DNA from: Akkermansia muciniphila
Lineage (GTDB): Bacteria > Verrucomicrobiota > Verrucomicrobiia > Chthoniobacterales > Chthoniobacteraceae
Direction: 5' to 3'
Length of the DNA: 44,251 nt
NCBI GenBank assembly: GCA_945906945.1
Contig: CAMDSZ010000002.1
Span: 1 to 44,251 of the forward strand
The notes beneath the pieces are model-generated. The model was not told the origin of the DNA. It searched no databases and saw nothing but the letters and a program-made list of their open reading frames with translations. The first letter of the stretch is position 1. The number at the start of each line of letters is the position of its first letter. Below are positions 8,496 through 30,519 of this stretch, piece by piece. Made by a program: the position numbers and the translations under genes.

Positions 8496-9365
8496 TTAAA
8501 GTTCACTGACTTTAAACAACGTTTCATTCTGACTCAAAACAGTGGCGGGCTCAGACCCCCTTTTTAGATAAGCGAGAGCCAAGGACGTTTGATTCGAATG
8601 GGTGATACTGGTGATGACTCCTATGGAATGTGCGGAATCCCTGATTGGAGCTGTAGGGTCAAACAGTTGGCTGCCTGCTGAATCAGTAGCAGAGAGGCTG
8701 TTTAAGAGTACGAGGCGGCGGTTGACGTGCCCGATGCTTTTAATTCGAGAGAGCACCTCCTGTCCTATATAGCAGCCTTTGTGGTAGTCGATGTGTGTGC
8801 GGTCCAACAAAGCCTCAGGTGGAAGTGAGTCCTCTGAAAGTTCGAAGCCCCAGGCGGCGACACCATTTGAGATGCGGAGCAACTCCCAATCTGGACACAA
8901 GTCATCGCCGCTTTCGAGCATTTGGCTGACAGCAGCCCTGTCGGAGGCGTGGACTCGCAGGTCCCAGCCAGCAACACCCAAACGCGAAGATTGGATGGGC
9001 GCTGAGTGGACGATTGACGATGGCAATGAAGTTTTGTCCAAACAATGAAACAACGTGTGGGTGAGGGTCTGGTCCTCAACGGAAACATCGTCAGCCACAA
9101 TATATCGTTCAAGCCGAGCCAGCAGAGTCTCGGCTACACCGGGGTGAGCATCCACAAGGAGCGAGGTTCCCAAATCCGAAATCCAAACGTCCGCTTGAAG
9201 GCGACCCTTGGCGCTGGTGACGCAGGCCGGAAGAGCGCGCGCGGTCGAAAGTTTCCTGAGATCCTGCGTGACCTGACCGTTTAAATAGCGGAGGCGGTCC
9301 GGTCCGGAGAACAGCAACTGGGAGCGATTTTTGAGCTCGAAAGAACGGGGATGAGGTGTGGACAT
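8496..9365 (-). CDS. ygfZ: YgfZ/GcvT-like folate-binding protein
   Basis: A 289-residue member of the YgfZ family. In well-studied bacteria YgfZ uses tetrahydrofolate to support assembly or repair of certain Fe-S enzymes, including tRNA-modifying MiaB. The N-terminal half has the family opening (LLFSGPDRLRYLNGQVTQDL) and SAKGRLQADVWI. The diagnostic motif KGCYIGQEVLSRIKSIG lies around residues 195-211, with its invariant Cys. The C-terminal part has the usual beta-barrel pattern (RRLVLL...SIGVITS...ALAYLKRG). It is downstream of mnmG on the same strand, separated by 183 bp with no obvious terminator. The ATG at 9365 fits the expected N-terminus. Confidence 0.92.
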   Translation of the reverse strand: MSTPHPRSFELKNRSQLLFSGPDRLRYLNGQVTQDLRKLSTARALPACVTSAKGRLQADVWISDLGTSLLVDAHPGVAETLLARLERYIVADDVSVEDQTLTHTLFHCLDKTSLPSSIVHSAPIQSSRLGVAGWDLRVHASDRAAVSQMLESGDDLCPDWELLRISNGVAAWGFELSEDSLPPEALLDRTHIDYHKGCYIGQEVLSRIKSIGHVNRRLVLLNSLSATDSAGSQLFDPTAPIRDSAHSIGVITSITHSNQTSLALAYLKRGSEPATVLSQNETLFKVSEL

Positions 9366-9548
9366 AGCAAAAAAGGAGTGTTGGTAGACAGAAACAGGCG
9401 GAAAAGGGCATTTGATCCGCTGTGGCCACCCTGGTGGTGAGGGTCGGGTGTGCTAGCGGGGCGTTTAAAGCGTTTTCGGGGTAAACAAGGGTTCAGCGAC
9501 GGCCGACAAAGCAGGTGAAGGGACTGTGAACCGAGATTTTATGGGATC

Positions 9549-11423: not shown

Positions 11424-11543
11424 TGGGGTGAAAGTGTACCAGTTCCTAGCCGGAAGGCGTAAGCAAAATTGGGCCCGAGTTGCAGGAGGCATTGCTCGCA
11501 CCACCTGAGGCGGGCGCCTGGTTGGGCCCCCTGGCTGCCTCCA

Positions 11544-11559
11544 AGTTCCACGTGGAACA
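11544..11559. promoter_or_regulatory. Second parS site, between mnmG and the kinase-like pair
   Basis: AGTTCCACGTGGAACA holds the same perfect 14-bp palindrome GTTCCACGTGGAAC as the site at 10657, with one outer base differing from the 16-bp form. It is 887 bp from the first site, upstream of both divergent genes. Two parS sites this close support a ParB loading region here. Confidence 0.85.
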
Positions 11560-11600
11560 TTCGGGTTGCCTCTTGTCCCGTTTCCTGCAAGGTTTCAAGG

Positions 11601-12320
11601 GTGGCCTCCTCCCCCCCAGAACCCAGACGCCTTCCCTCCGGCGCTCCCGACTACGCCGGAAGGCTCATCGCCGTCGAGGGGCTGGATGGCTCCGGAAAAT
11701 CCACCCAAATCCGCCTGGTCAAGAGCTGGCTGGAGCAGGAGGGGTATCGGGTTTTTTTCACCGAGTGGAACTCCTCCACGCTGGTCAAGCAGGCCACCAC
11801 CAAAGGCAAGCAGAGGCAGCTGCTCACCCCGACCACTTTTTCCCTCATCCACGCCACAGATTTCGCCGACCGCTACCAGCGCCAGATCCTGCCCCTGCTC
11901 CGAGCGGGCTTCATCGTTCTGGCGGACCGGTACGTTTATACGGCCTACGCCCGGGACGCCGTCCGAGGCGTGGATCAGTCCTGGGTGGAGAAGGTCTACG
12001 AGTTCGCCCGCAAGCCCGACATCACCTTCTACTTCCGGGTGGAATTGGAGGTGTCGCTCAGGCGGATCCTTGAAACCCGGGCGGTGCTCAAATACCACGA
12101 GGCGGGCATGGATATGCGCTGGAGCGCGGATCTCGTGGAAAGCTTCCGGATGTTCCAAAGCAAAATCTCGATGGAGTACGAGCGCATGCGGGAGAAGTTC
12201 GATTTCCTCGTGATTGAGGCCGGGCGCCCCATCCCCGAGCAGCAGGAGGAGGTCCGCCGGATCATCCGCCAGAATATCGATCTGCGCCCCTTCAAGCATC
12301 AGCAAGGGCCCCAGTCATGA
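11601..12320 (+). CDS. Thymidylate kinase-like P-loop protein, first of a tandem pair
   Basis: A nucleoside-monophosphate-kinase fold related to dTMP kinase. The Walker A loop is intact (EGLDGSGKST, Lys33 in the form starting at 11601). Other family traits are ADRYVYTAYARD, matching the DRY region of dTMP kinases but without the usual AYQ, and EAGMDM where the lid and base-contact region should be. True dTMP kinase activity is therefore not certain. The frame runs upstream to a TTG at 11469, overlapping the mnmG promoter and a parS site with an unlikely Cys/His/Arg-rich peptide. I prefer GTG at 11601, which has weak AAGG upstream and places the P-loop near the N-terminus as in the paralogue. 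The last four bases (ATGA) overlap the start of the next gene, indicating translational coupling. Confidence 0.8.
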   Translation: MASSPPEPRRLPSGAPDYAGRLIAVEGLDGSGKSTQIRLVKSWLEQEGYRVFFTEWNSSTLVKQATTKGKQRQLLTPTTFSLIHATDFADRYQRQILPLLRAGFIVLADRYVYTAYARDAVRGVDQSWVEKVYEFARKPDITFYFRVELEVSLRRILETRAVLKYHEAGMDMRWSADLVESFRMFQSKISMEYERMREKFDFLVIEAGRPIPEQQEEVRRIIRQNIDLRPFKHQQGPQS

Positions 12321-13009
12321 AAATCCGCTGGTTCAAACAAGCGCTTCCCGAGGTCAAGGACGAGAGGCTACCCGGCCGCCTGTTTGTGCTCGAGGGACCA
12401 GATGGCTCGGGGCGCACCACCCAGATTAATCAACTGGTGCAGTGGCTGGAACGCCGGGGTTTAGCGGTCCGCACCTGCGGCCTTGGCCGCTCGGAGCTCG
12501 TGGGGGAGGAACTGGAGCAGGCGACGCACGGCACCATTCTGACGCCCCTGACCCGGAGCCTTTTTTATGCAACCGACTTTTACGACCAGCTTTTGCACAC
12601 CATCCTCCCGGCCTTAAGGGCGGGCTTCATTGTGCTGACGGACCGCTATATTTACACCCTTATCGCCCGCGATCTGGTCAGGAACGCCGACCCAGAGTGG
12701 GCGCGGAATCTTTATGGTAGCGCCCTGGTGCCAGACGTGGTCTTTCATCTGCGGGTGAGCGCGCGGACGCTGGTGCAGCGGAATTTCGAAAAAAACTCCA
12801 CCCTAGACTACTGGGAGGCAGGTATGGACCTCTGCCTCTCGGACAACATGTTTGACAGCTTCGTCAAGTATCAGCGGCTGATGAACGCCCAGTTCATGGA
12901 GCTCTCGAAGGAACATCATTTCGAGGTGGTGGACGCAAATCGCCGCGTCGGCTTGATTCAGGCTGACCTCCGTAAAAAGCTCGCCTCGCACCTGGGGATA
13001 GCCCCTTAA
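12317..13009 (+). CDS. Thymidylate kinase-like paralogue with altered Walker A (Lys to Arg)
   Basis: A 230-residue paralogue of the preceding protein, aligned almost end to end: SLFYATDFYDQ against SLIHATDFADR, LRAGFIVLTDRYIYT against LRAGFIVLADRYVYT, EAGMDLCLSDNMFDSF against EAGMDMRWSADLVESF. The P-loop reads GPDGSGRTT, so the catalytic Walker A Lys is replaced by Arg33 at exactly the place of Lys33 in the partner. Arg at this place usually weakens or abolishes phosphate transfer in P-loop kinases, so this copy may be a regulatory or structural partner in a heterodimer; this is inference. It starts with ATG in a 4-bp ATGA overlap with the first gene, so the two are made together. Confidence 0.82.
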   Translation: MKIRWFKQALPEVKDERLPGRLFVLEGPDGSGRTTQINQLVQWLERRGLAVRTCGLGRSELVGEELEQATHGTILTPLTRSLFYATDFYDQLLHTILPALRAGFIVLTDRYIYTLIARDLVRNADPEWARNLYGSALVPDVVFHLRVSARTLVQRNFEKNSTLDYWEAGMDLCLSDNMFDSFVKYQRLMNAQFMELSKEHHFEVVDANRRVGLIQADLRKKLASHLGIAP

Positions 13010-13023
13010 GCACCCTGGTTGGC

Positions 13024-13253
13024 GGTGAGGCGAACATCTCGGCCGCGTTGAACGCGCGTGGAATGGTTGGATGTGAAATACCCTTAGGCTCCCTTAGGGC
13101 TGCCTTTGGGCTCCCCTTGCTGTTGCGCCACCTCTTTGGTGCAATCCGCGTCTGGGCGCAGCTGGGGCTACGCGCTCCCAGGGGGCTGCCGACGGATCGA
13201 TCTCCGCAAATGATAAATCTCATCCGTTGCAAAGCCTGGCTGCGAGCGAGGCG
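13024..13253 (+). repeat. Dispersed intergenic repeat, copy 1
   Basis: This gap of about 300 bp after the kinase-like pair has no convincing gene. It shares four collinear blocks with 19671-19864 in the same orientation: GGTGAGGCGAACAT (13024), a 27-bp block at 13053-13079 (24 of 27 identical), a block at 13173-13203 including ACGGATCGATC, and a 25-bp block at 13229-13253 (23 of 25 identical). The sequences between blocks differ in length and content. It is probably an old non-coding repeat family, mobile or structural in origin. Confidence 0.75.
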
Positions 13254-13307
13254 GTTTTCAGGCCGCGCGACCTTGAGCTTGGCTGAGGGTTAGGGTTAGC
13301 TCAACGC

Positions 13308-14471
13308 ATGGACCTGCAAAGAGCCCGTGACTGGTTTGAAGAGAATTTCCGGCTGCGCGGAGAGCGCGGCGCCGCGATGAGTTTGTGGGATGCGAATGGC
13401 GAAGTCCTTTCGCTGGCTGGCGGCTACGAGGATATGACGGATACTAAGCCGTGGACCGCCCAAACCCCGGTTTTGATCTGGTCGGCAACCAAGGGGCCCG
13501 CCGCAGCCTGCTGCCTGCATGCGCTTGAAAAAGCGGGGCTCGAACCGGACGACAAGGTCTGCTCGCTATGGCCTGAATTTGCCGCTGCTGGCAAGGCGGA
13601 GGTCACCTATCGGATGCTGTTACAGCATCAGGCGGGGCTGAGCGCTCTGGATAATCCGCCACCGGTGGAAGACCGGGAAGCGGTGGTGCGAGCGCTGGCT
13701 AAGCAGGCGCCCGCTTGGATTCCGGCAACTGCTCATGGGTATCATCCCCGGACCTTCGGGTTTTTGGTGGACGAAGTGGTACGGCGAGTTTCGGGAGTAG
13801 AGAGCTTGCAGGAATACTGGAGGCAGGTTTTCGCCGAGCCAATGGATTTGGAAATGTGGATTGGGGTTCCAGAGGAGGTGCTGCCGAGGGTCGCTCCGGT
13901 GTATTCGTCAAAAAGCGTCCTGCCAAAGGACGACCCTTTCCTAACGGCTTTTATGACTCCTGGATCCCTTACATCCCGTTCGTTCGCCTCGCCCAAGGGC
14001 CTGCATTCCGCAGCGGCAATGAATGCGGACGCCCCGCGAAAAGCGTGTTATCCGGGCTTTGGGGGAATCGCCACGGCGGCGGCGCTTGCGAAGTTTTACG
14101 CGATGCTCGCCCAGGGGGGAACATGGCAGGGCGAGGTGCTGCTATCGGGCAAGGTGCTGTTGGAGATCACAAGCTCCGGAGTCCAGGGTATGGATGCGGT
14201 TCTGCAAATGCAGACGGCTTTTTCCCTCGGGTTCATGCGGGATCCAGTTGCCGCGGGAGGCAATAAAATCCGCCGGCTGTTTGGCTCCTCAGGAGGCGCG
14301 TTCGGACATCCGGGCGCGGGGGGAAGCCTCGCATTCGCGGATCCCGAAAGGGGCGTGGGATTCGCCTATGTGATGAACCAGATGGAGCTCGGCGTGCTAC
14401 CGAAAGAGCGCGCGCAAGGGTTGGTGGACGCGCTATTCTCGGAACCAACGCTGCCAAGCCCAGCTTATTAG
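13308..14471 (+). CDS. Serine beta-lactamase-like hydrolase (EstB / class C type)
   Basis: A 387-residue protein of the beta-lactamase-related (PF00144) superfamily. The SxxK nucleophile motif is SATK (Ser59, Lys62), and Tyr145 in HGYHPRTFG is in the place of the YxN-type catalytic Tyr, with Pro in place of Asn. The sequence near the C-terminus, FGHPGAGGSLAFADPERGVGFAYVMNQM, is typical of this family, with HPGAGG standing where class C enzymes have KTG. No signal peptide is visible, so it is probably cytoplasmic and more likely an esterase or amide hydrolase than an antibiotic-resistance enzyme. It stands as a single gene after the repeat copy and is convergent with the MscS-type gene. Confidence 0.85.
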   Translation: MDLQRARDWFEENFRLRGERGAAMSLWDANGEVLSLAGGYEDMTDTKPWTAQTPVLIWSATKGPAAACCLHALEKAGLEPDDKVCSLWPEFAAAGKAEVTYRMLLQHQAGLSALDNPPPVEDREAVVRALAKQAPAWIPATAHGYHPRTFGFLVDEVVRRVSGVESLQEYWRQVFAEPMDLEMWIGVPEEVLPRVAPVYSSKSVLPKDDPFLTAFMTPGSLTSRSFASPKGLHSAAAMNADAPRKACYPGFGGIATAAALAKFYAMLAQGGTWQGEVLLSGKVLLEITSSGVQGMDAVLQMQTAFSLGFMRDPVAAGGNKIRRLFGSSGGAFGHPGAGGSLAFADPERGVGFAYVMNQMELGVLPKERAQGLVDALFSEPTLPSPAY

Positions 14472-16692: not shown

Positions 16693-17964
16693 CTAGCCGA
16701 TGCGGCTGCTCCCAAAATACGGACGGAGCGCCTCCGGGACCTCAACAGAGCCATCAGCCTGCTGGTAGGTTTCGAGCAGTGCGACAAAGAGCCGTGGCAA
16801 CGCCGTGCCGGAGCCGTTGAGCGTGTGACAGAAGCGGTTCTTGCCCTCGCCATCCTTGAAGCGCAGGTTCATACGCCGCGCTTGGAAATCGCCGAAATTC
16901 GAGCAACTGGACACTTCCAGATAACTGTTTTGGCCGGGTGCCCACACCTCGATATCGTATGTTTTTGTAGCGCCAAATCCAACGTCACCCGTGCACAGTT
17001 CAATCACCCGGTAGTGCAAGCCAAGGATTTGCAGCACTTTCTCTGCGTTGGCCGTGAGCAGTTCGAGCTCCTCGAAGGCGCTCTCCGGGGTCGTGATTTT
17101 TACGAGCTCCACCTTGTCAAACTGGTGCATGCGGATCAGGCCGCGCGTTCCAAGCCCCGCGGAGCCCGCCTCGCGCCGGAAACAGGGCGTGTAGGCGGCG
17201 TAGCGGATGGGCAACTGTTCCAAGCTCAGGATCTCTTCCCGATGCAAATTGGTGACAGGCACTTCTGCAGTGGGGGCGAGGTAAAGTTCGTCGCGGTCGC
17301 AGCGGTACAGTTGCTCCTCGAACTTCGGCAACTGCGAGGTCCCCACTAGCGCCTCCGGGCGCACGATGAAGGGCGTGCTGACTTCGCGGTATCCGTGTTG
17401 GGTGGTGTGCAGATCCAGCAGGAAGTTGAGCAAAGCCCGCTCCATGCGCGCCCCCGCGCCGGTAAAGCAGACAAACGCGCTTCCGGAGATCTTCGCTGCG
17501 CGGTCAAAGTCGAACAGACTCAGCTTTTCGCCGAGTTCCACATGGCTTTTCGGGGTGAAAGAGAAGGAGGCCTTCTCGCCCCAGACTCGCACCTCGGGAT
17601 TCGCCTCGGCGTCTGCACCGATAGGACAACCTTCGTGCGGCAGGTTCGGCAGCGTCAGCAAAAGCTCGCGTTGCCTAGTGTCGAGGGCAGCCGAGAGTTC
17701 GTTGAGTTTCGCAACCTCGTCGCCAAGCCCGCGCACTTGCGCCTCGATGCTCGAGGTGTCTTCCCCCTTGGCCTTGAGGGCGCCGATCTCCTTGCTGATG
17801 CGCTTTCTATCCGACTGCAGGAGTTGGAGTTGAGTTTCAGCAGCCCGGCGGTCCTTGTCGCACGCAAGGATGGCGTCTATTTGGAGGTGGGCGTCGCCCC
17901 CACGCGTGGCGAGGCGAGCTTTAATCGAGTCGGGCTGTTCCCGGATGAGGCGGATATCGAGCAT
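16693..17964 (-). CDS. serS: Seryl-tRNA synthetase
   Basis: A class II aminoacyl-tRNA synthetase, 423 residues, the usual length. It charges tRNA-Ser and tRNA-Sec with serine in the cytoplasm. The N-terminus MLDIRLIREQPDSIKARLATRG opens the long coiled-coil arm that grips the tRNA variable arm (about 30-100). Motif 2 is CFRREAGSAGLGTRGLIRMHQFDKVE, motif 3 includes NGSGTALPRLFVALLE, and the serine-site region EVSSCSNFGDFQARR is intact. First gene of the run with tilS and mscS. No Shine-Dalgarno sequence is obvious before the ATG at 17964, but the N-terminus is canonical. Confidence 0.97.
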   Translation of the reverse strand: MLDIRLIREQPDSIKARLATRGGDAHLQIDAILACDKDRRAAETQLQLLQSDRKRISKEIGALKAKGEDTSSIEAQVRGLGDEVAKLNELSAALDTRQRELLLTLPNLPHEGCPIGADAEANPEVRVWGEKASFSFTPKSHVELGEKLSLFDFDRAAKISGSAFVCFTGAGARMERALLNFLLDLHTTQHGYREVSTPFIVRPEALVGTSQLPKFEEQLYRCDRDELYLAPTAEVPVTNLHREEILSLEQLPIRYAAYTPCFRREAGSAGLGTRGLIRMHQFDKVELVKITTPESAFEELELLTANAEKVLQILGLHYRVIELCTGDVGFGATKTYDIEVWAPGQNSYLEVSSCSNFGDFQARRMNLRFKDGEGKNRFCHTLNGSGTALPRLFVALLETYQQADGSVEVPEALRPYFGSSRIG

Positions 17965-18063
17965 AAAAGGTAAATGTGTCGCGTAAATTGTTTTCCGCCA
18001 GAGCGTTAAGCTGAAGCCTTTGCGGGCCGCCCAGAAAGGCGCGCGGGTGCGTGTTTTTGCGGG

Positions 18064-19326
18064 CTATTCTTGCGTAAAGATAAAGACCCCGCGTTTGTTC
18101 GAAACGAGCACGTCGACTTTGCCGTCCTTGTTGATATCGCCGGTAGTGACCTGCGTGCCGACGCCGCTATCTTCATCAATGAGGTGTGCAATGAATTCAG
18201 CACCGCCCTTGCCGTCCCGCTTCAATTCAAACCAATACAGCACGGGTGCCGCATCCGGCTCCTCGTCCTTAAACGGACCGTGCGCCCAGCGGCGTTTTCC
18301 CGTCACCAAATCCTGCAGGCCGTCGCCATTGATGTCGGCAAGCTGCATGGAGTGCAGTTGGGAGAACTTCACGCGCTGCGGGTTTTCCTCGGGAGTCGAG
18401 CCCATGATTTTGTGTTCGGTGAAGGAGCCGTCCTTGTTGTTTTCGAACCAGCCAAGTCCGTAGCCGTGTCCGTCGTAGGCCGTGATGACATCGTTGCGGC
18501 CGTCACCGTTCACGTCGTAAACAAGCATGTGCGAGCCTCCGCGTGCGCCCGGCGGTGAAAACGCCACGGGATGAAAAATCCAGTTGGAATCCTCTTTGGT
18601 GTCCTTTGGCTGCTCCCTCCAACCCTCCCGGTCCAAGATATCCGCCAGACCGTCGCCGTTGACGTCACCCGCACCGTACCCGTGTGTGTAGCGGAAATAC
18701 TTTTCGTCGTTCTGGGGGGATTTCGGAGTGATGGGGCGGAACCTTGCTTTGCCAAGCGGGTTGCTCCAATCCACCTCTGCGTAGCCAAGTTGCCCGCCGC
18801 CTTTGCCCTTTGCCGAGGCGGGCTTGTTGGGATCGCTTGAGTGGACCAACAGCTCGGGTTTGCCGTCGCCATTAACGTCCTTGAGATCGGGCGACTCGCC
18901 GTCGGCGACATCAAAGATATTGTGTTTCTGCCAGTCCCCGCCTTTGCCCTTGGGGTTCACGTACAAAAGGGCGGGCTCACCGGGCAGGCCGTACACAAGA
19001 ATGTCCGCCCACGAGTCGTTATTGAAATCGTAGGCGTAGCATAGGAAATAGTCCGAGTAGCCTTTTGCAGGGTCGTAGGGGGTTTTCGTCGGCCCGCTCG
19101 CGTTTTCGCTAGGAGGAGTGAAGGTGGTTTTTCGGGTGAAATCTGGTCCGTGCCAAATGTAGCAGCCAGCCGTCATATCGATGTGCCCGTCGTGATCGAA
19201 ATCCGCGAAATTGCAGCCCTCGGCGACGAACTCCTCGGTGAGCACATGCTTTTTAAATTTCACTTCAGCAGCGTGGCCAGGAGCGGCACAGAAGAGAGAC
19301 AGCGTGATGAGCAGGGGGCGGTTCAT
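18064..19326 (-). CDS. Secreted FG-GAP/VCBS repeat protein
   Basis: A 420-residue exported protein. The start is MNRPLLITLSLFCAAPGHAAEV, a Sec signal peptide with cleavage after GHA. The rest is at least seven repeats with Ca2+-binding-like DxNxDGxxD loops, for example FADFDHDGHIDM, DVNGDGKPELL, DVNGDGLADIL, DVNGDGRNDVI, DINGDGLQDLV and DINKDGKVDVL. These form a beta-propeller like that of integrin alpha chains. Such proteins are abundant in Verrucomicrobiota and Planctomycetota; their function is mostly unknown, and surface adhesion or glycan binding is a guess. The frame is open upstream to 19608, but that extension is the antisense of the tRNA gene, so the ATG at 19326 is right. It is not tightly linked to the genes around it. 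Confidence 0.9.
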   Translation of the reverse strand: MNRPLLITLSLFCAAPGHAAEVKFKKHVLTEEFVAEGCNFADFDHDGHIDMTAGCYIWHGPDFTRKTTFTPPSENASGPTKTPYDPAKGYSDYFLCYAYDFNNDSWADILVYGLPGEPALLYVNPKGKGGDWQKHNIFDVADGESPDLKDVNGDGKPELLVHSSDPNKPASAKGKGGGQLGYAEVDWSNPLGKARFRPITPKSPQNDEKYFRYTHGYGAGDVNGDGLADILDREGWREQPKDTKEDSNWIFHPVAFSPPGARGGSHMLVYDVNGDGRNDVITAYDGHGYGLGWFENNKDGSFTEHKIMGSTPEENPQRVKFSQLHSMQLADINGDGLQDLVTGKRRWAHGPFKDEEPDAAPVLYWFELKRDGKGGAEFIAHLIDEDSGVGTQVTTGDINKDGKVDVLVSNKRGVFIFTQE

Positions 19327-21046: not shown

Positions 21047-22237
21047 TTACAGACTCCATTCGGCAATTTTTCGACTGTTGATGAAATACGTATGCGTTTC
21101 GCCGATGCTTTTGACTTCCACCGGCCCGCGGTCCTCGAGCTCGAATTCGTCTCTCAAGAGGTCCGCGGTTGCCTGGGAGCAGTGGACCCGCCCCGGCAGC
21201 CCCGAAGATTCCATGCGACTGGCGATGTTCACCGTATCGCCCCAAAGATCGTATGTGAATTTGCGTATGCCGATCACGCCAGCGACCACCGGGCCTGAAT
21301 TTAGGCCGATGCGCGCGGAGAGTTCCGTTTGGTTCACCGCGTTGATCTTCGCGAGATTCTCGATCATGGACAAAGCGAGGTCCGCAGCCGCCTGGGCATG
21401 CCCTTCCTTCAACTCCGGGGCGCCGCCGACCAGCATGTAACAGTCCCCGATCGTCTTTATTTTTTCGAGGCCGCTCCGCTCCACCAGAAGGTCGAACGTG
21501 GAAAAAATGGCGTTGAGCATCTTCACCAGCTTGTCGGGAGTTGTTGTGCGAGAGAGCTTTGTGAAACCAACTAGATCCATGAATAAAACTGTCACGGAGG
21601 CATGGGCATCTGCGATGAGCTTTTCGCCTCCCTTCAACCGGCCCGCGATGGACCGGGGCAGGATGTTCAGAAGCAGCTTCTCCGTTTTCTCCTGCTCTGC
21701 AACGACGCGGGCATGTTCGGATTCGATTTGGGCGAGCCGGAGTTTTTCCAGGTTGCGCAGCTTCTTCTTCTCGATGGACGTCGTCACTCGAGCACGTAGC
21801 AGAACCGGATTGAACGGCTTTGGAAGATAGTCTTCCGCTCCCATTTCGATGCAGCTCACGGCCGAGCTCACGTCCTCCCCGCCGGAGATCACAATCGTTG
21901 GCAGGCTAAGCGAAGCGTCGTTCCGCATTTCTGCCAGGACCTCTAACCCGGTCATCTCAGGCATTTCAACGTCCAGCAGCATCAGGTCGAAAGACTCGGA
22001 ACGCAGTTTTTCCAGTGCCTCCCGCCCGTTGCTCGCCTCGGCCACGTTGGTGAAGCCGAGTTTTTTCAGATCTCGGGTGATGCCCATGCGCATCATTTTG
22101 CTGTCGTCGACTACAAGGATTCGAGCGGACTGCAAGGACTGGGCCGCAGCCTGTTCGGCGCGCGCCGCCTCCTCCGAGGTTTCGTGCATCGAACTGTTGA
22201 AGTCGAATAGGTCTGAGGGATCTGGGTCTTCGGACAT
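21047..22237 (-). CDS. Response regulator fused to a class III adenylate/guanylate cyclase
   Basis: A 396-residue cytoplasmic protein. A receiver domain (about 38-155) has the acidic pair Asp44/Asp45, phospho-acceptor Asp89 in LMLLDVEMPEM, and Lys in YLPKPFNP. A coiled-coil linker (about 158-195) leads to a class III cyclase domain (about 210-385). The two metal-binding Asp are in LFMDLVGFT and KTIGDCYM, and the Asn/Arg pair in VNIASRME is intact. The base-selecting residues look like Lys (EKIKTIGD) and Asp (YDLWGDTVN), which favours ATP as substrate; this is inference. All catalytic residues are present, so it should make cAMP when the receiver is phosphorylated. It is the last gene of the che operon, 70 bp after cheB, in the place where a CheY output protein would be expected. 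Confidence 0.93.
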   Translation of the reverse strand: MSEDPDPSDLFDFNSSMHETSEEAARAEQAAAQSLQSARILVVDDSKMMRMGITRDLKKLGFTNVAEASNGREALEKLRSESFDLMLLDVEMPEMTGLEVLAEMRNDASLSLPTIVISGGEDVSSAVSCIEMGAEDYLPKPFNPVLLRARVTTSIEKKKLRNLEKLRLAQIESEHARVVAEQEKTEKLLLNILPRSIAGRLKGGEKLIADAHASVTVLFMDLVGFTKLSRTTTPDKLVKMLNAIFSTFDLLVERSGLEKIKTIGDCYMLVGGAPELKEGHAQAAADLALSMIENLAKINAVNQTELSARIGLNSGPVVAGVIGIRKFTYDLWGDTVNIASRMESSGLPGRVHCSQATADLLRDEFELEDRGPVEVKSIGETHTYFINSRKIAEWSL

Positions 22238-22307
22238 AGGGTGGTCAGTAACGTTGGGGTTGCGGGCGAGACTCTGTCAACTGCGTGTGCAGCGGAGCGG
22301 GTGTTCT

Positions 22308-23462
22308 TCAGGCAGGAACCCCGCCGATGGCGCGGATGATTGCCGCGGGCATCTGCTCCAGAGGCACGACCTGGTCCACGACCCCCATCTGGACCGCAGC
22401 CCGCGGCATTCCGTAAACCACGCACGAGCTTTCGTGCTCTGCAAGCGTGCGCCCGCCCGCCGCCTTGATCGCCTTCATGCCGACGGCGCCGTCGCTGCCC
22501 ATGCCGGTGAGGAGCACGGCCGTCACACGCGCCCCAGCGGCCTCGGCAGCCGAGCGAAACAGGACGTCAACCGCTGGTCGGCAGTAGTGAACGGGAGGGG
22601 TTTGCGTAAGCCGCGTCCGATAACCTGTCGCAGATCGCATAATTGTCAGGTGATAGTCGCCGGGCGCGATGACGCAGACGCCTGGCTTTAACTCCTCGTT
22701 ATCAACCGCTTCGTGCACTTCGTATCCGCACATCTCGTTGATGCGCATAGCGACGGCTTTCGAGAAGAAGGGCGGGATGTGCTGGGTGACAGCGATGGGC
22801 GGCATCGTCGGGGGCAGGCTTGGAAGCAGAAAGCGGAGAGCCTCGACCCCGCCTGTGGACGAGCCGATCACGATCAGGCGCTTGTCGCTGGGGGTCGCAG
22901 CCGCGGCCGGGGAACTCAGATTTCCGGGTGTGCTGGGTGTTTGAGTTGCGGGTCTGGACCAGTTCGAGGAAGGGGTTGGGTTGCCGCCGCCAGTGAGGAG
23001 CGGGGCCATTTGTTTGGGAGGAAGCAACGGCTGGAGGGGGGCCGCAGTGGAGCGGCGGGCGCGTGCCGCGGCCTTGACATGGAAGGCGAGTTTGTTGGCC
23101 AGACCGCCGATGGACATGCTGCCGTCGGGCTTGGCGAGCACGTCTCGAGCGCCGGCATCCATTGCGGCGAGCGCCATCGCGGACCCCTGCTGCGTGAGCG
23201 AGCTTACCACCACGACCGGGATCATGGGCTGCTGCTTTTGGAGGATTTTGAGGAACGTGAGCCCGTCCATGCGGGGCATTTCCATGTCGAGCGTCAGGAC
23301 ATCGGGCTGGAGTTTCGGAATCTTTTCCTGCGCGACCAAGGGGTCGTTGGCCGACCCGACCACCTCGATTTCGGGGTCGAGGGAAAGCGCGTCCGTGATC
23401 GCTTTGCGCACAAGCGCGGAGTCATCGATGATCAATACTTTTATTTTTCCGCTGGTGCTCAT
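22308..23462 (-). CDS. cheB: Chemoreceptor methylesterase/glutamine deamidase CheB
   Basis: Removes methyl groups from receptor glutamates and deamidates glutamines; CheA phosphorylation activates it. 384 residues: receiver domain (about 7-125) with Asp13/Asp14 and phospho-acceptor Asp59 (LTLDMEMPRMDG), a Pro-rich linker (about 140-190), and the methylesterase domain with the catalytic triad Ser in GSSTGGVEAL, His in VTQHIPPFF and Asp in TGMGSDGAVGM. It lies between cheR and the response regulator-cyclase gene in the che operon. Together with cheR it provides adaptation to the membrane receptor of the same operon. Confidence 0.96.
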   Translation of the reverse strand: MSTSGKIKVLIIDDSALVRKAITDALSLDPEIEVVGSANDPLVAQEKIPKLQPDVLTLDMEMPRMDGLTFLKILQKQQPMIPVVVVSSLTQQGSAMALAAMDAGARDVLAKPDGSMSIGGLANKLAFHVKAAARARRSTAAPLQPLLPPKQMAPLLTGGGNPTPSSNWSRPATQTPSTPGNLSSPAAAATPSDKRLIVIGSSTGGVEALRFLLPSLPPTMPPIAVTQHIPPFFSKAVAMRINEMCGYEVHEAVDNEELKPGVCVIAPGDYHLTIMRSATGYRTRLTQTPPVHYCRPAVDVLFRSAAEAAGARVTAVLLTGMGSDGAVGMKAIKAAGGRTLAEHESSCVVYGMPRAAVQMGVVDQVVPLEQMPAAIIRAIGGVPA

Positions 23463-23509
23463 GGGAAAGGGAATCGGGTGAGGAGGGTTATGAAAGCTGG
23501 GTGTGAAAG

Positions 23510-24349
23510 CTATTTGGTTCGCATGAATATCCCGTGGCCCAGGGGCCTGAGCCGGTGCTCGATCCCCATTAGGCTCTCAGAATGGCCGATAAAGAGGTAG
23601 CCGCCCGGTGCGAGCTGGAGGCTGAGCTTGCGGATGAGCTCGGACTGCGAGGGTTTGTCAAAATAAATCAGCACGTTGCGGCAGAAGATAAGGTGCTGCT
23701 CCGCAGAGATTGGGTATGACGGTTCGAATAGATTCACCCGCTTTATAGTGACTTTCTTGCGGAGCATTTCTTTCACGCGGCAGGAGCCCTCGAATTTTCC
23801 CGAGCCCTTTTGAAAGTAACGTTTCAGCAGCTCCGGTGACGGCAGTTCCAGCCGGCTTTGCTCGTACACCGCGGCCTGCGCCTTATCGAGCATTCGATAA
23901 GAAATGTCTGATCCAAGGATCTCCCATTTTAGCGGCTTGTGAAGTTGTTCGTATTCGGCGAAGCAGATCGCGATGGTGTACACTTCCTCCCCTGACGAGG
24001 AAGCTGCGGACCAGCAGCGGATGGGTTCCTTGGAGGCCGCAACCCGGCGGTTGAGCTCCGGCAGAGCATGCTGCATGAGGAAGTCGAAGTGGGCGCGCTC
24101 GCGGAAAAAATGGGTGTGGTTGGTGGAGATGGCGTCGACGATAAACGCGATTTCGTCATCGTTTTTCCGGGCTCGGAGCAGCTCGCAGTAGGCATCGAAA
24201 TCCTTGAGGCGCAGCTCCACGCGCCTCTTGCGCAGGCGACTGGTAAGAAGCTGCTGCTTGTGTTCTCCGAGATGAATCCGGCTATAGCGGTAGATCAGCT
24301 CTGCGAGAAAGGCGTACGCCTGTTTAGAAATGCCGGCGTCAGAGGACAT
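23510..24349 (-). CDS. cheR: Chemoreceptor glutamate methyltransferase CheR
   Basis: Methylates receptor glutamates with S-adenosylmethionine. 279 residues, the usual size. The N-terminal helical domain (about 1-80) contains the basic stretch SRLRKRRVELRLKDF. The methyltransferase domain has STNHTHFFRERAHF, the SAM loop CWSAASSSGEEVYTIAI, EILGSDISYRMLDKA and LIFCRNVLIYFD, ending in GGYLFIGHSESL. It sits 22 bp downstream of the receptor gene and 47 bp upstream of cheB. The receptor's C-terminal aromatic pentapeptide could tether this enzyme. Confidence 0.96.
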   Translation of the reverse strand: MSSDAGISKQAYAFLAELIYRYSRIHLGEHKQQLLTSRLRKRRVELRLKDFDAYCELLRARKNDDEIAFIVDAISTNHTHFFRERAHFDFLMQHALPELNRRVAASKEPIRCWSAASSSGEEVYTIAICFAEYEQLHKPLKWEILGSDISYRMLDKAQAAVYEQSRLELPSPELLKRYFQKGSGKFEGSCRVKEMLRKKVTIKRVNLFEPSYPISAEQHLIFCRNVLIYFDKPSQSELIRKLSLQLAPGGYLFIGHSESLMGIEHRLRPLGHGIFMRTK

Positions 24350-24371
24350 CCATGGAGTCTATTTTCATGGA

Positions 24372-25955
24372 CTAAAAATCCTTGAACTCGTCGGCCTCCG
24401 CAGACTTCTCGCCAGGCGCTTGGGGCTTATTGGGAGCGCCGCTGGCGGATGTTTCGAAGCTGCCCGCAGGCGCCGCTGGGGAGCCGAAGGTTGAGCTAGA
24501 ATGCGTCGCGGGACCGGAGGCGTCGCTGATCCCAACGATTTCACCCAAACGATCGGTGAGCCCCTTGTGAACGCTCGACTGGGCACTGAGCTCCTCGGCC
24601 GCGCTGGCGCATTGTTCCGAGTTGGACGCATTGCTTTGCGTGACCTTGCTCATCTGGCCGATGGCGGCGGAAATCTGTTCGATGCCGAGAGACTGTTCCT
24701 TGGCCGCAAGCGCGATTTCAGCAACGAAGGCGTCGGTCTGCCGGACTTTTTCGCCAATCTTTGTGAACGCATCGCCCACTTTGATGAGGCTTTTGGAACC
24801 ATTTCGGCTGTTGAGAATTGCCGCCTCGATCTTTTCGGCCGTCTCGTTCGCCGCAGCCGCGCTGCGCTGGGCAAGCGAGCGAACTTCGTCGGCGACCACT
24901 GCGAACCCGGCACCGGCTTCCCCGGCCCGTGCAGCTTCAACGGCTGCGTTAAGAGCGAGGATGTTGGTTTGGAACGCGATTTCGTCGATGCTCTTGACGA
25001 TCTTCGCGACTTCCGCGCTTGAGGATTCGATGGACTTCATTGCCGCGGTCATCTCCACCATGGTGGAGGATCCGCTCTGCGCGGCGTTCTGGGCCTCATT
25101 GGCCATGTTTTTAGCCTGCAATGCGTTGTTGGCTGTTGAATGAATCATGCTCGACATCTCCTCGAGCGACGCGCCGGTTTCCTCGACGGCAGCGGCCTGT
25201 TCGCTGGCGCCCTCCGCCAGACGCTGGCTTGCGCGCGCCACCTGTTCGGCGGCAAGCAGCGATTGCTCGGCGCCGAGAGCGAGCTCCTCGGTGATGGATC
25301 GCAGAGACGGGATCGTGGACCGGTACAGCAGGTAGATGGCCAGATACACGCCGAGCAGGATGGCGAGCTCGCCTCCAAGCACGACTTGCAGGGACTTGGC
25401 CTGGCTTTGGGTTGCGAAATTTTCATCCGCCTTCGCCTGTGATTCGACCAATGTCACGACTTCATCGATGATCGCGCGATGCGCCTCGTACGTCTTTGAA
25501 AGCGCAGTGTACGCCTCATGAGCCGCAGTCTTGTCACCCGAGGTGATGGCCGGCAGAAAGCGGGTCTGGGCGATGTTGAAAAAGCTGTTGGCGTGCTGGT
25601 GCGAGTCGGTGGTCAGCTTGGCCTTGATGGCGTTGGTGATCATCTTGCTCTCTGACCAGAACGCGCGTCGCTTTTCGTAATCCTCTTTGAGCGCCGGAAT
25701 CCTTTCTGCGAGCTTTCGAATCTCTGCCGGCTTCTCCTCTAGCAGGCAGCGGCTCAGGACCAGGTAACTTTCGATCACGTAAGCGGGAGGCGGCAGGATG
25801 TCCGCGAGCAGGTCCTTGTCGGCGGTGATGCGCTGATACACCGGCCCGTTGATCTTTGTGTCCTCGAGCAGGAAGTTGACGACCACACCTTCGACGAGAA
25901 CCGCAACGGTCACGATGAGGGCCAGAAGGCGGATGAAGTTTTTGAGGTTTACCAT
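24372..25955 (-). CDS. Methyl-accepting chemotaxis protein (membrane receptor)
   Basis: A 527-residue transmembrane receptor. Membrane helix 1 is at about 7-29, followed by a periplasmic helical-bundle sensor (about 30-190, Lys/Glu-rich, with [14 protein letters not shown]) and membrane helix 2 at about 191-212. No typical HAMP domain is seen; the signalling coiled coil begins almost directly. The hairpin tip, [34 protein letters not shown] (split here from one stretch, about 320-355), is canonical and contacts CheA and CheW. After the coiled coil a Ser/Pro/Ala-rich flexible tail of about 40 residues ends in EFKDF, which fits the aromatic x-[FWHY]-x-x-[FWHY] tether pattern for CheR/CheB. It lies between cheW and cheR, so it is the operon's own receptor. 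Ligand unknown. Confidence 0.93.
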
Positions 25956-26004
25956 AGGTCAGTGGATTGGTTGAGTGTCTCTAAAAGTAGCTTGGGATAA
26001 ACAA

Positions 26005-26535
26005 TTAATGGCTCTGCATAGCAGGCGTTTCGGCGGCGATAGCCCGTTCGATTAGCGGAAGAGAAAGTTCACCCTCCGCCAGCAGTACTTGGTCAATGTC
26101 GAGGATCGCCTTCACCGTGCCCTTGCTCTTGGCCATTCCTAGAATGAACTGGGTGTCGAGCATGGGACCGAAGTCCGGCGTCGGTTCGATGTCCGCTGCG
26201 CTGAACGGGGACACATCCTCCACCGCATCGACGATCACACCCATTACGCTCTTGGAGCCACCTGCGAGCTGCACGACAATAATGCAGGCGCGCTCGGCGT
26301 CTTCTTGAGGCGGCAGCTGGAAACGGGAGCGGAGGTCGACCACAGCGACAATTTTGCCGCGCAGATTGATCACGCCGCGCAGGTATGACGGCATGCGCGG
26401 TACCGCCGTGATTGGGCACAGGCGCATGATCTCTCGCACCTTTAAAACAGGCAGGCTGTAGTACTCCTGCCCAAGCCGGAATGTCAGGTATTTGCCCGGC
26501 ATTGCTGCTGTGTTGGATATGGGTTCGGTGCTCAT
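26005..26535 (-). CDS. cheW: CheW coupling protein
   Basis: A 176-residue adaptor that links receptors to CheA. Family signatures: KYLTFRLGQEYYSLPVLKVREIM, MPSYLRGVINLRGKIVAVVDLRSRF, and GVIVDAVEDVSPFSAADIEPTP. The last 30 residues form a short tail. The start is well supported: GAGGAG lies 8 bases before the ATG at 26535, one of the few clear Shine-Dalgarno sequences here. It lies between cheA (96 bp upstream) and the receptor gene (49 bp downstream). Confidence 0.96.
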   Translation of the reverse strand: MSTEPISNTAAMPGKYLTFRLGQEYYSLPVLKVREIMRLCPITAVPRMPSYLRGVINLRGKIVAVVDLRSRFQLPPQEDAERACIIVVQLAGGSKSVMGVIVDAVEDVSPFSAADIEPTPDFGPMLDTQFILGMAKSKGTVKAILDIDQVLLAEGELSLPLIERAIAAETPAMQSH

Positions 26536-26631
26536 GAATCGATCTCCTCTATGAACTAGTTAACGCGCGGCAGGAGCGGGATTTGTTTGAATGGTTGCGA
26601 AGCTGATGTGGGCGTGTAGGTAAAAGCAGGT

Positions 26632-29007
26632 CTATGCCACGGCCGCTCGCGGCAGCAGCTTTAAGTTTGCAAGCGCATCCAAGTCGACGATCAGCGCCAC
26701 TCGGCCATCGCCCAGGATTGCGGCGCCCGACATGAGCGCTTGGGACTTGAACGCGTCGCCGAGCGATTTGATGACGACTTCCTTTTTGCCCAGCAATTCA
26801 TCCACCAGCAGGCAGCGCTGTGTGGTTCCGGATTCCGCCACGACAATGATGCCCTTGGTCGGGTCGTTAATCGCGCCGGGAATGCCCAGCATCGATCCAA
26901 GGCGAGTCAGCGGCATGAGCTTGCCTCGGACACTCACCAGCTCGCCCGTGCCTTGGACGGTGGAAATCATGTTCTCCGTGATGCGCAGACACTCGCGAAC
27001 CGATAGTGTTGGCAGGATAAACTTTTCGTCGCCGATGGAGACCAGCAGCCCGTCGATGATCGCGAGCGTCAGCGGCAGAAAAATCGTAAACGAGGAACCC
27101 TGCCCGAACGTGGATTCCACCTCGATGCGGCCGCGCAATCGCGAGATGTTTCCGCGGACAACGTCCATCCCAACGCCGCGCCCGGAGAGGTCTGTGACTT
27201 TCTCCGCCGTTGAAAAACCGGGTGCAAAGATAAGTTCGAAGATTTCCTTTTCCGAGAGCGACGCGTTGGGCTCGATGATGCCTTTTTGAATCGCCTTGGC
27301 GACGATCCGGTCTTTATCCAGTCCTTTGCCGTCGTCCGCGATGCATATCACGATGCCCCCTCCCTGATGGTAAGCTTGGAGGCGGATCGTCCCCAGCGCC
27401 GGCTTGCCCTTTGCGACGCGCTCCTCGGGCATTTCGACCCCGTGGTCGGCAGAGTTGCGGATCATGTGGATGAGCGGGTCCGCGAGTTCCTCCACAATGT
27501 TGCGGTCCAGTTCCGTGTCCTCGCCGGAAAGGAGCAGCTGGATTTGTTTGCCCTGTGAGCCTGCCAGATCGCGGACGAGGCGGGTCATTTTCTGAAAAGC
27601 AGCGCGAATGGGCACCATGCGCAGAGACATCGCGTTGTGTTGCAGATCCGTGGTGATGCGCGCGAGCTGACGCATGCAGCGGGCCAGTTGGCGGTCGGTG
27701 AGCTCCATTACCTCTGGGTGTTGGATCACCATGGATTGCGCAATCACGAGCTCGCCAACCAGGTCAACGAGTGAGTCGAGCTTCAGGGTATCGATCTTAA
27801 CAAAGTTCGCGGGCCCCTCGCCCGATGCGGGGTTCGCTGGTTTGGGCTTGGCGGGTTTCGCAGCGCTTTGTGGCACGGCAGCCGGCGTCGACGGAGACGG
27901 AGTAGCCGTGCTTGGCGCCGGGGCGGCAGCAACCGGAGCGGGAGCAGGCGGAGCGGGAGCAGGCGGCGGCGCGGCCGCTGGTGTTGGCGGGGCGGTCGGT
28001 GCGGGTGCCTGAGTCGGTGCGGGCCCAGGCGCTGGAGCTGGAGCTGAGGCGGCGGGCGCAGGGCTTGCTGCCGCGGGTTTCGCTGGTGCGGCTTTCGGTG
28101 GAGGCGGAGCCGGCGCGGCCTCCGGTTCTGGTTCGCCGTGGAGGCAAGCGTGGCTCCGGGCGATGATGCTCAGGGTCGGAATGCAGATCGGCTCGGCAGC
28201 ATTGGTGCCGGCGAGGCGTTCGCTGATTTTCTCGATGAATTGCCGGAGAGCGTCCCCGCCCGCAAGGATGATGTCGATCACGGGCGTGGTGATCGCTAGT
28301 TCCCCGCGGCGGGCCGCATCGAGGACGCTTTCTAGCTCGTGCGCCAGGTTTTTGATGGCCTCCAAGCCAAGGTAGCCGGCACCCCCTTTGAAAGTGTGGA
28401 AAGCCCGGAACACCCGGTTGAGCGTGTCTTTGTGGGAGGGGTTTTCCTCGAGCACGAGTACACCCTGTTCGATGTCCTGTAAAAGATCCCGGCCCTCGTT
28501 GCAAAACTCGTTGAGCAGATCGCCATCGTCCCCGATTTCGATCATCAGTACGGGTTCTTCGACAGGTTCCCCTTCGCCGGACTCCGCGTCGGGGGCGTTG
28601 CTGGGATCGTTGCCGGCCGCGGTTGTTATGGGTGCGGAGGGTGCGGAGGCAGGAGCCGCAGCGTTTGGCGGACCCGCTGGGGAGGAGGGCGTGGGTTCCT
28701 CGGGCGCATGAATCCAGTGGTGGAGGGCCGTTTCCATCCGCGGGTACCAAGCGTTGAGATCCAGTAAAATCTCATCCGAAAAAGCTCCGGCGTCAGCCGC
28801 AGAGTTCACTAGGGCGGCGCCGGTGTTCAGTTCCTGGGTGAAGCCGGAGGAGGCGTTGGAGCCGGCGGCGTTCCCGAGTGCCTGTAGCGCAGACTGCAGA
28901 GCTTCGATGCCTGTAGCGCCGCCCGGTTCTAAAAAAGCGAATTCGGTCGCGACACCCTGTAAGAGCGCAGTGATTTCCGCGATATTAGCTTCCGTTAGCT
29001 TACTCAT
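26632..29007 (-). CDS. cheA: Chemotaxis histidine kinase CheA
   Basis: The central kinase of the chemosensory pathway. With the start at 29007 it has 791 residues: an extra N-terminal helical region (about 1-105) with no recognised domain; an acidic/Pro linker; the P1 Hpt domain with phospho-acceptor His204 in FRAFHTFKGGAGYLG; a long Ala/Pro-rich linker (about 294-396) in the place where a P2 response-regulator docking domain would be; then dimerisation, ATPase (MIRNSADHGVE, ADDGKGLD, GRGVGMDVV, GQGSSFTIFLP) and a CheW-like P5 domain. The frame is open up to 29145, but that extension is Cys/Asn-rich and unlike the family; MSKLTEANIAEI is a more natural start. First gene of the operon. It should phosphorylate CheB and the response regulator-cyclase. 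Confidence 0.94.
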   Translation of the reverse strand: MSKLTEANIAEITALLQGVATEFAFLEPGGATGIEALQSALQALGNAAGSNASSGFTQELNTGAALVNSAADAGAFSDEILLDLNAWYPRMETALHHWIHAPEEPTPSSPAGPPNAAAPASAPSAPITTAAGNDPSNAPDAESGEGEPVEEPVLMIEIGDDGDLLNEFCNEGRDLLQDIEQGVLVLEENPSHKDTLNRVFRAFHTFKGGAGYLGLEAIKNLAHELESVLDAARRGELAITTPVIDIILAGGDALRQFIEKISERLAGTNAAEPICIPTLSIIARSHACLHGEPEPEAAPAPPPPKAAPAKPAAASPAPAASAPAPAPGPAPTQAPAPTAPPTPAAAPPPAPAPPAPAPVAAAPAPSTATPSPSTPAAVPQSAAKPAKPKPANPASGEGPANFVKIDTLKLDSLVDLVGELVIAQSMVIQHPEVMELTDRQLARCMRQLARITTDLQHNAMSLRMVPIRAAFQKMTRLVRDLAGSQGKQIQLLLSGEDTELDRNIVEELADPLIHMIRNSADHGVEMPEERVAKGKPALGTIRLQAYHQGGGIVICIADDGKGLDKDRIVAKAIQKGIIEPNASLSEKEIFELIFAPGFSTAEKVTDLSGRGVGMDVVRGNISRLRGRIEVESTFGQGSSFTIFLPLTLAIIDGLLVSIGDEKFILPTLSVRECLRITENMISTVQGTGELVSVRGKLMPLTRLGSMLGIPGAINDPTKGIIVVAESGTTQRCLLVDELLGKKEVVIKSLGDAFKSQALMSGAAILGDGRVALIVDLDALANLKLLPRAAVA

Positions 29008-29442: not shown

Positions 29443-30519
29443 ATGAGCCAGCCGACCACGCCTACTCCACCTGAAGCGCAAGGATTGCCCGAGCAAATCT
29501 TAAATTTGGCGGATGCTCTCGGAGAGAAAGTCCGGACATCTCTTAAGCAAATCGACGAGATCAACACGCAGTCGAGCTTGCTTTCGCTCAACGCAAAGAT
29601 CGAGGCGGCACGCGCCGGAGCAGCAGGGCGCTCGTTTGCGGTGGTTGCGACGGAGATGGGCGAGTTGTCGGAGACTACTAAGAGGGTGGCAATCCAGCTG
29701 TCGTCGAAGTTGGGCGGCGATATCGCGGAATTGCAGAACATCTCGCAGCGCCTGGCGTCGGATGTTCTCGGCACACGGCTTGCGGACCTGGCGCTCACCA
29801 ATATCGACTTGATCGACCGCAATCTGTACGAGCGTTCCTGCGATGTGCGCTGGTGGGCGACGGATTCGAGCGTGGTGGATTTGCTTACCGAGCCGACGCC
29901 GGAGCGCGTCGAGTACGCCTGCAAGCGCCTTGGGGTGATATTGAACGCTTACACGGTGTATTTTGATTTGGTGGTGTGCGGCCTCAACGGTGAGGTGCTA
30001 GCCAATGGGCGGCCGCAGACTTACAAGTCGATTGGAATGAATGCCGGCAAACAGCGCTGGTTTCAGAGCGCGTTGCAAACCCGATCCGGAGACGAGTTCG
30101 GGTTTGAGATCGTGCACGCATCTCCCCTGGTCGACGGGGCCTACATTTTGGGCTACTCGTGCGCGGTGCGGCGCGGCGGCGAAGTTGACGGCGAGCCGAT
30201 TGGTGTGCTGGGTATTTTGTTCAACTGGCGTGGACTGGCGCAGACTGTGGTGGATCGAACGCCTCTTACGGACGAGGAGAAGACACGTTCGCGCGTCTGC
30301 ATTTTGTCCGAAGAAGGCGCAATCCTAGCCGACACACAAGGAGCGCCTTTGTCCGGGGAGCTTCACTTCCCAGAGCGGGAAAGCGTATGGAGCTCATCGA
30401 AGTGTTTCACAGAGGTGGAGGAGGAGGCCGGCCAACTGCTGGTTGCGCACGCGAAAGCGCCGGGATTCGAGACGTACAGCACGCACTGGCATTCAGTGAT
30501 TCTTCAACGGTTGTCGTAG
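29443..30519 (+). CDS. Soluble methyl-accepting-type protein with C-terminal Cache-like sensor
   Basis: A 358-residue protein with no membrane segment or signal peptide. Residues about 15-100 are a shortened receptor signalling hairpin: the tip SSLLSLNAKIEAARAGAAG and following FAVVATEMGELSETTKR match the CheA/CheW-binding region, so it can probably join receptor arrays. A linker with LYERSCDVRWWATDSSVVD leads to a Cache/PAS-like sensor (about 150-270; DLVVCGLNGEVLANGRP, KQRWFQSAL, ASPLVDGAYILGYSCAVR, GVLGILFNWRG). The order, signalling part first and sensor last, is reversed from usual receptors but is seen in a family of such proteins. It is divergent from cheA and probably feeds a cytoplasmic signal to the same pathway. 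Confidence 0.85.
   Translation: MSQPTTPTPPEAQGLPEQILNLADALGEKVRTSLKQIDEINTQSSLLSLNAKIEAARAGAAGRSFAVVATEMGELSETTKRVAIQLSSKLGGDIAELQNISQRLASDVLGTRLADLALTNIDLIDRNLYERSCDVRWWATDSSVVDLLTEPTPERVEYACKRLGVILNAYTVYFDLVVCGLNGEVLANGRPQTYKSIGMNAGKQRWFQSALQTRSGDEFGFEIVHASPLVDGAYILGYSCAVRRGGEVDGEPIGVLGILFNWRGLAQTVVDRTPLTDEEKTRSRVCILSEEGAILADTQGAPLSGELHFPERESVWSSSKCFTEVEEEAGQLLVAHAKAPGFETYSTHWHSVILQRLS

Follow-up and report, generated by a model that had tools for sequence, protein, structure and literature searches.

A conserved chemosensory operon with a receiver-adenylyl cyclase fusion as a predicted output in a verrucomicrobial draft genome

Results

A chemosensory operon that ends in a receiver-cyclase gene

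The subject of this report is a cluster of six chemosensory genes, the last of which encodes a receiver (REC) domain fused to a class III nucleotide cyclase. The cluster occupies positions 21047 to 29007, on the minus strand, of a stretch of 44,251 nucleotides that we refer to as the window (contig CAMDSZ010000002.1 of GenBank assembly GCA_945906945.1, named Akkermansia muciniphila and placed in the Chthoniobacteraceae, phylum Verrucomicrobiota, by GTDB). This window corresponds to contig C2 in a draft genome of 4.06 Mb in 416 contigs, 88.8% complete, which by its make-up is a metagenome-assembled genome (MAG). We conclude, with a probability of about 0.72, that the six genes constitute a single operon, encoding an adaptive chemosensory array with cyclic AMP (cAMP) as its local output. 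The system is real and conserved and the adaptive array probably makes cAMP; it is less rare and less exclusive than was first thought, and it is better supported by comparison with other genomes.

The six open reading frames (ORFs) are co-directional and follow one another head to tail in the order cheA-cheW-mcp-cheR-cheB-REC-cyclase, with intergenic gaps of 22-96 nt, and ruvB comes next after the cyclase gene. All domains of the six products score above the Pfam cut-offs, and these E-values, together with the conservation of the genes in other genomes, rule out a chance assembly. A preliminary description of this DNA had reported the minus-strand cluster, with the metal and transition-state residues of the cyclase visible and with no CheY gene in it. 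The ORFs and the residues are indeed intact, no cheY is present between 21047 and 29007 or elsewhere in the window, and the coordinates were correct, with the ATG at 29007 as the better start for CheA. Scans for promoters and terminators gave nothing above chance. The gene order, the domains, the catalytic and phospho-acceptor residues and the clade-specific linkage to che genes presented below are read directly from the sequences.

The fusion (21047-22237, minus strand, 396 aa) is a predicted REC-class III adenylyl cyclase, with matches to Response_reg (4.7e-30) and Guanylate_cyc (1.1e-60). Its receiver domain (21785-22120, minus strand) possesses D44, D45, D89, S118 and K140. In an AlphaFold2 model the receiver is followed by a long helix (residues 144-192) and then by the catalytic domain (21077-21610, minus strand), which would be the usual layout for a receiver-switched dimer. 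The catalytic domain has the residues by which a class III adenylyl cyclase is recognized, namely two metal-binding aspartates (D221 and D265), the adenine-binding lysine and aspartate (K261 and D330) and the transition-state asparagine and arginine (N337 and R341), together with K376. All seven are invariant in an eight-member alignment of relatives and align with both halves of mammalian AC5/AC8. Each chain carries both half-sites, and the enzyme is accordingly expected to form a homodimer with a pair of active sites. Lysine and aspartate at the specificity positions of class III enzymes are found in adenylyl, not guanylyl, cyclases, and the fusion probably produces cAMP from ATP.

Linkage of one cyclase clade to chemosensory genes

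A wider scan was carried out with one genome per species, followed by inspection of the neighborhood of each fusion. In a tree of 68 REC-cyclases, all but one of the 16 che-linked proteins fall within a single clade of 18 (support 100/99), and the label for che linkage changes 4 times on this tree, compared with 14.7 times in shuffles. The clade is found with two lineages of CheA. With 15 of its 18 members che-linked, the association of these REC-cyclases with the che system is well supported. An adaptive array wired to such a cyclase had been described as unusual; the 15 che-linked members of this clade among the fetched loci, and the listing of such regulators in 2012 (PMC3447774), do not support such rarity.

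A search of 197 genomes of the order, with a threshold of E < 1e-60 for the fusion, identified 20 other genomes that carry one. Just one genus-mate of the window has a fusion, and that protein is located on another branch of the tree. Relatives of CheA in the order and phylum were sought with the N-terminal 290 residues as query. Conservation of the operon in relatives, proposed earlier as a check, was confirmed: the same order with the cyclase last was found in L072, L073 and L075 and in a MAG of the Comamonadaceae, L089, and part of it in L071, L074 and L088, in which contig ends intervene. In five of these operons (L071, L072, L074, L075 and L088) cheX and a single-domain cheY lie between cheB and the cyclase gene, and in the window, L073 and L089 no cheX-cheY is found at this place. 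In the genus- and family-mates L205, L212 and L207, whose CheA is of the same type, cheX-cheY is present and the cyclase is missing. A related backbone is associated with a series of outputs: CheX-CheY only, CheX-CheY plus cyclase, and cyclase only. Among these relatives, the cyclase output has apparently been added to, and has then replaced, the usual CheX-CheY output.

Two side observations concern these loci. A conserved gene of the metallo-beta-lactamase fold lies directly behind or near the REC-cyclase gene in L072 (10672-11601) and L071 (5509-6384); the two products are 58% identical, and it is conceivable that they are nucleotide phosphodiesterases. In L078 (genome G084), which has a stand-alone REC-cyclase of the che-linked clade (8858-10018), a flagellin-like ORF is present about 7 kb away (16947-18401), so that flagella may occur in some of the relatives within the order.

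Outside the phylum, che-adjacent fusions were found in L089, in L090 (labelled Planctomycetaceae), in L091-L095, which are beta-proteobacterial and include Polynucleobacter nymphae and Ferrovum, and in L121. On the L089 contig a proteobacterial-looking rpoD adjoins. The CheAs of L092-L094 are about 32-35% identical to that of the window and represent a second, divergent beta-proteobacterial lineage, in which the CheA of L092 has two CheW stretches. The window pairs with L089 in the cyclase tree (99/94) and in the CheB tree (100/99); the CheA and CheR trees give no resolution on this pairing. The simplest reading of these sequences is a transfer of the cassette between phyla, with mis-binned MAG contigs, above all L090 and L121, as the main caveat. 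The labels of these two look doubtful; L121 is named Akkermansia muciniphila (isolate AH-24oct19), and the cyclase of L090 nests inside the verrucomicrobial clade. In L091 (7941-11071, Polynucleobacter nymphae) cheB, cheR and the REC-cyclase gene are present without cheA, beside nuo-like genes, and this set is possibly a remnant or part of a split system.

The kinase and the adaptation branch

CheA (26632-29007, minus strand, 791 aa) consists of an N-terminal helical bundle, a histidine phosphotransfer (Hpt) domain, a Pro/Ala linker and H-kinase_dim, HATPase_c and CheW domains. The core of a CheA has been defined as P1, P3, P4 and P5 (PMC10782961), and all of these are present, with the phospho-acceptor His204 within the motif AFHTFKGG of P1 (28225-28521, minus strand) and with the expected N-, G- and F-box motifs. 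A Pfam search of the protein revealed no P2 and no receiver domain. At the expected place of P2 is the linker (residues 291-398; 27814-28137, minus strand), 36% Pro and 35% Ala, or 71% for the two together, so that its earlier description as a long Ala/Pro stretch was accurate. The use that had been made of it, as a clue to an output other than CheY, was dropped. P2 is missing from 52% of CheAs generally (PMC10782961), and when the window CheA and three relatives were compared in full, all were without P2 between P1 and P3, including relatives that keep cheY. The loss of P2 is therefore uninformative on the output.

Residues 1-105 of CheA (28693-29007, minus strand) are a conserved extension that Pfam does not recognize. 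The AlphaFold2 model (pLDDT 86) is a bundle of four helices, the second of which lacks a histidine, and its best matches to natural folds include CheA P1 (Salmonella P1, TM 0.72, Z 12.3, 111 residues, 16% identity). It is possible that this is a pseudo-Hpt domain like those described in ChpA, a suggestion to be read with the broad matching of helical bundles in mind. In the genus-mate L205, the CheA of about 1000 aa (10894-13920) appears to have an N-terminal bundle of the GLLPINSF type repeated at least twice, and its first 290 residues have no Pfam match.

Between cheA and the cyclase gene, all on the minus strand, are cheW (26005-26535, 176 aa; PF01584, 1e-35), mcp (24372-25955, 527 aa), cheR (23510-24349, 279 aa; CheR, 1.1e-54) and cheB (22308-23462, 384 aa), which encodes a receiver and a methylesterase domain and matches PRK00742 above its cut-off. 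The signalling domain of the methyl-accepting chemotaxis protein (MCP) aligns with Tar/Tsr with no change in length, and the protein ends in EFKDF; most relatives have xFRNF, xFRDF or xFRRF in this position. The pentapeptide that binds CheR and CheB is characterized by aromatic residues at positions 2 and 5 (PMC7390727), and the EFKDF sequence fits this rule. The methylation-adaptation branch thus looks complete. Divergent from cheA is a gene (29443-30519, plus strand) that encodes an MCP hairpin tip only (residues 28-88) and then a dCache-like domain; this unusual order, with the tip N-terminal, was not seen in the related operons.

Other regulators and cyclic-nucleotide genes

The preliminary description took the fusion as the only response regulator output, with the caveat that CheY could be encoded elsewhere, and it is the caveat that held. 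Of 28 receiver matches in the genome, one is a stand-alone CheY of 126 residues on contig C146, and the proposition that the genome lacks CheY was dropped. This CheY is 38-51% identical to the CheYs of related che operons and 26-36% identical to the receivers of the cyclases. Directly upstream of the intact cheY is an HDOD/CheX-type ORF (L035, 2356-3087) with one in-frame stop in this assembly, which may reflect real decay or an assembly error. Together with the five relatives that carry cheX-cheY inside the operon, this pair argues against a sole output through the cyclase. A second chemosensory cluster, on contig C17 (L034, 13894-17875), encodes a CheW, a triple-PAS MCP and a CheA that has two CheW domains and is truncated at the contig end, and in all there are four proteins with an MCP signal domain in the genome.

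Flagellar and pilus genes had also been named as a test. No gene of the FlhA family (FHIPEP), a single marker, was found in this MAG of 88.8% completeness, and control genomes give matches. A PilB/GspE-like ATPase and two of the PilT/PilU family are present, and type IV pili are the only motility machine detected.

Domains that bind cyclic nucleotides (cNMP) are found in this genome in a transporter and in a channel-like C-terminus, both unlinked to the operon. In several relatives such genes are closer. The L089 row starts with two cNMP_binding ORFs (one just under the cut-off) and a PDEase_I-like ORF, followed by cheA; the PDEase_I-like ORF is sub-threshold (21.2 bits compared with a cut-off of 24.8) and contains YHNRLH and HDFGH, motifs of class I phosphodiesterases. 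In L072 a cNMP_binding ORF precedes cheA, and an ABC transporter containing a cNMP domain lies behind; in L093 a cNMP-binding protein directly follows the cyclase, and in L071 an Ion_trans plus cNMP_binding channel is located nearby.

Discussion

A model for the operon

We propose that the transmembrane MCP, CheW and CheA assemble an array in which CheA, controlled by the receptor, would autophosphorylate on His204. CheA would then donate the phosphate to CheB and to the REC-cyclase, at Asp89. The phosphorylated receiver, acting through the long helix, would activate the class III homodimer, which would convert ATP to cAMP. CheR, tethered at the EFKDF tail of the MCP, and phosphorylated CheB would reset the receptor, and the cAMP output should therefore adapt to a constant stimulus. 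The cAMP would probably be received by cNMP-binding proteins, such as the channel C-terminus and the transporter of this genome, and the stand-alone CheY encoded elsewhere may share the kinase. In this model the phosphotransfer, the direction of regulation, the specificity for ATP, the adaptation of cAMP and the effectors are inferred from well-studied families. As a whole, the clade-specific che linkage, the catalytic residues and the cNMP neighbors in relatives support the pathway from receptor to cAMP, with CheR/CheB adaptation, that had been proposed at the outset, as one output and not as the sole one.

Several observations weigh against this model. A chemosensory-type CheY is encoded elsewhere in the genome (C146), the truncated second CheA on C17 could serve either regulator, and the genome is an incomplete MAG in 416 contigs. 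With a home-made profile, cNMP genes were found at 4 of 16 che-linked loci; among the remaining REC-cyclase loci the count was 6 of 83, and among che loci that lack a cyclase it was 0 of 13. This enrichment is suggestive and modest, and it is partly circular, the profile having been seeded in part from the che-linked loci. The same local profile found no cNMP-binding gene within the window.

The most serious alternative, which overlaps with the model and which we consider a real possibility although short of an even chance, is that the output is branched, with CheA serving both the REC-cyclase and the CheX-regulated CheY of C146, the latter acting on type IV pili or on some other target. The presence of cheX-cheY and cyclase in the same operon in five relatives favors this, as does the occurrence in this genome of a CheX-type/CheY pair of the same CheY family and of PilT/PilU-family ATPases. 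However, the C146 pair is outside the operon, its CheX-type ORF contains an in-frame stop, and the kinase of this CheY may be the second CheA, on C17. It is improbable that some other kinase phosphorylates the fusion, or that the fusion is mainly a phosphate sink or scaffold, with its place in the operon being incidental. REC-cyclases overall are mostly not beside che genes, and members of the same clade exist without che genes nearby (L076-L078), but the che-linked proteins make up one clade and are kept beside two CheA lineages in several phyla, and chance neighbors would not be so maintained.

The two remaining alternatives concern the nature of the product and of the system itself. Guanylyl cyclases occur among the class III domains of this family, and the product might be cGMP or a mixture of cAMP and cGMP; this is quite unlikely, since Lys261 and Asp330 match adenylyl cyclases and do not vary within the family, and a reading of the fusion as a guanylyl cyclase was disfavored on these residues. 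Finally, the normal make-up of CheA, CheW, MCP, CheR and CheB, and the alignment of the receptor signalling domain with Tar/Tsr, would be expected of an ordinary flagellar chemotaxis operon with the cyclase as an accessory. The failure to find an FlhA-family gene, the single flagellar marker used, in this 88.8% complete genome and the absence of cheY from the operon speak against this reading, which we consider very improbable.

A broader version of the proposed cAMP array may be offered tentatively, as an idea that we regard as distinctly less than an even bet. The operon would represent a portable, self-contained cassette for adaptive cAMP signalling that originated when a cyclase was added to a CheX-CheY operon. 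Some lineages would have lost CheX-CheY, and the cassette would have been transferred between Verrucomicrobiota and beta-proteobacteria. In its fullest form, a phosphodiesterase of the class I type and effectors that bind cNMP would join the array and the cyclase in a single row of genes.

Comparison with known systems

It is of interest to compare this operon with systems in which a chemosensory array controls a second messenger. The Wsp system of Pseudomonas is composed of WspA-WspE-WspC-WspF-WspR with two CheW homologs, WspB and WspD, and WspR makes cyclic di-GMP by means of a GGDEF domain (PMC5812489). The window operon resembles Wsp in possessing homologs of MCP, CheW, CheA, CheR and CheB and a REC-nucleotide cyclase output, directed to a second messenger and not to a motor; it differs in having one cheW and an output of the class III type (Guanylate_cyc), without GGDEF. 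In the Pil-Chp system of Pseudomonas aeruginosa, cAMP is made by a separate cyclase, CyaB, that is activated through the stand-alone PilG, and the kinase ChpA combines a receiver with many Hpt/Xpt domains (PMC5812489, PMC12632253). Like Pil-Chp, the window system is predicted to be a chemosensory pathway that raises cAMP, but here the REC-fused cyclase is itself the response regulator and the operon includes no stand-alone regulator. Unlike ChpA, the window CheA has one Hpt match and no Response_reg, and its extra N-terminal bundle is without the helix 2 histidine.

Also close are the REC-mononucleotidyl cyclase regulators listed in 2012 in the cheR-TPR clusters, which belong to the alternative cellular function (ACF) class (PMC3447774). 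In these too a receiver is joined to a class III cyclase and the gene lies within a che cluster, and multidomain regulators with an enzymatic output domain, of which the window fusion is one, are common in ACF clusters (PMC3447774). However, they were catalogued only, and they accompany a CheR-TPR, whereas the CheR of the window has no TPR fusion. In the CheX/CheY operons of L205, L212 and L207 both the receptor tail and the cheA-cheW-(mcp)-cheR-cheB backbone are related to those of the window, but these operons end in cheX-cheY with no cyclase, and a CheD-like gene is present in addition in L205 and L212. In the literature searched we found neither a characterized che operon with a REC-adenylyl cyclase output nor a follow-up to the 2012 listing. 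The present description adds to that catalogue an entire lineage of conserved operons, together with the cNMP genes beside them.

Implications

cAMP is usually pictured as a reporter of level, for instance of carbon state or of surface contact. If the model is true, a methylation-adapting array in which the cyclase is the response regulator would make cAMP a high-gain, adapting signal, and, if the idea of a portable cassette is also correct, cAMP would report temporal changes in a stimulus and not the stimulus level. The natural series of output states on a related backbone would make the change of output in chemosensory systems directly testable.

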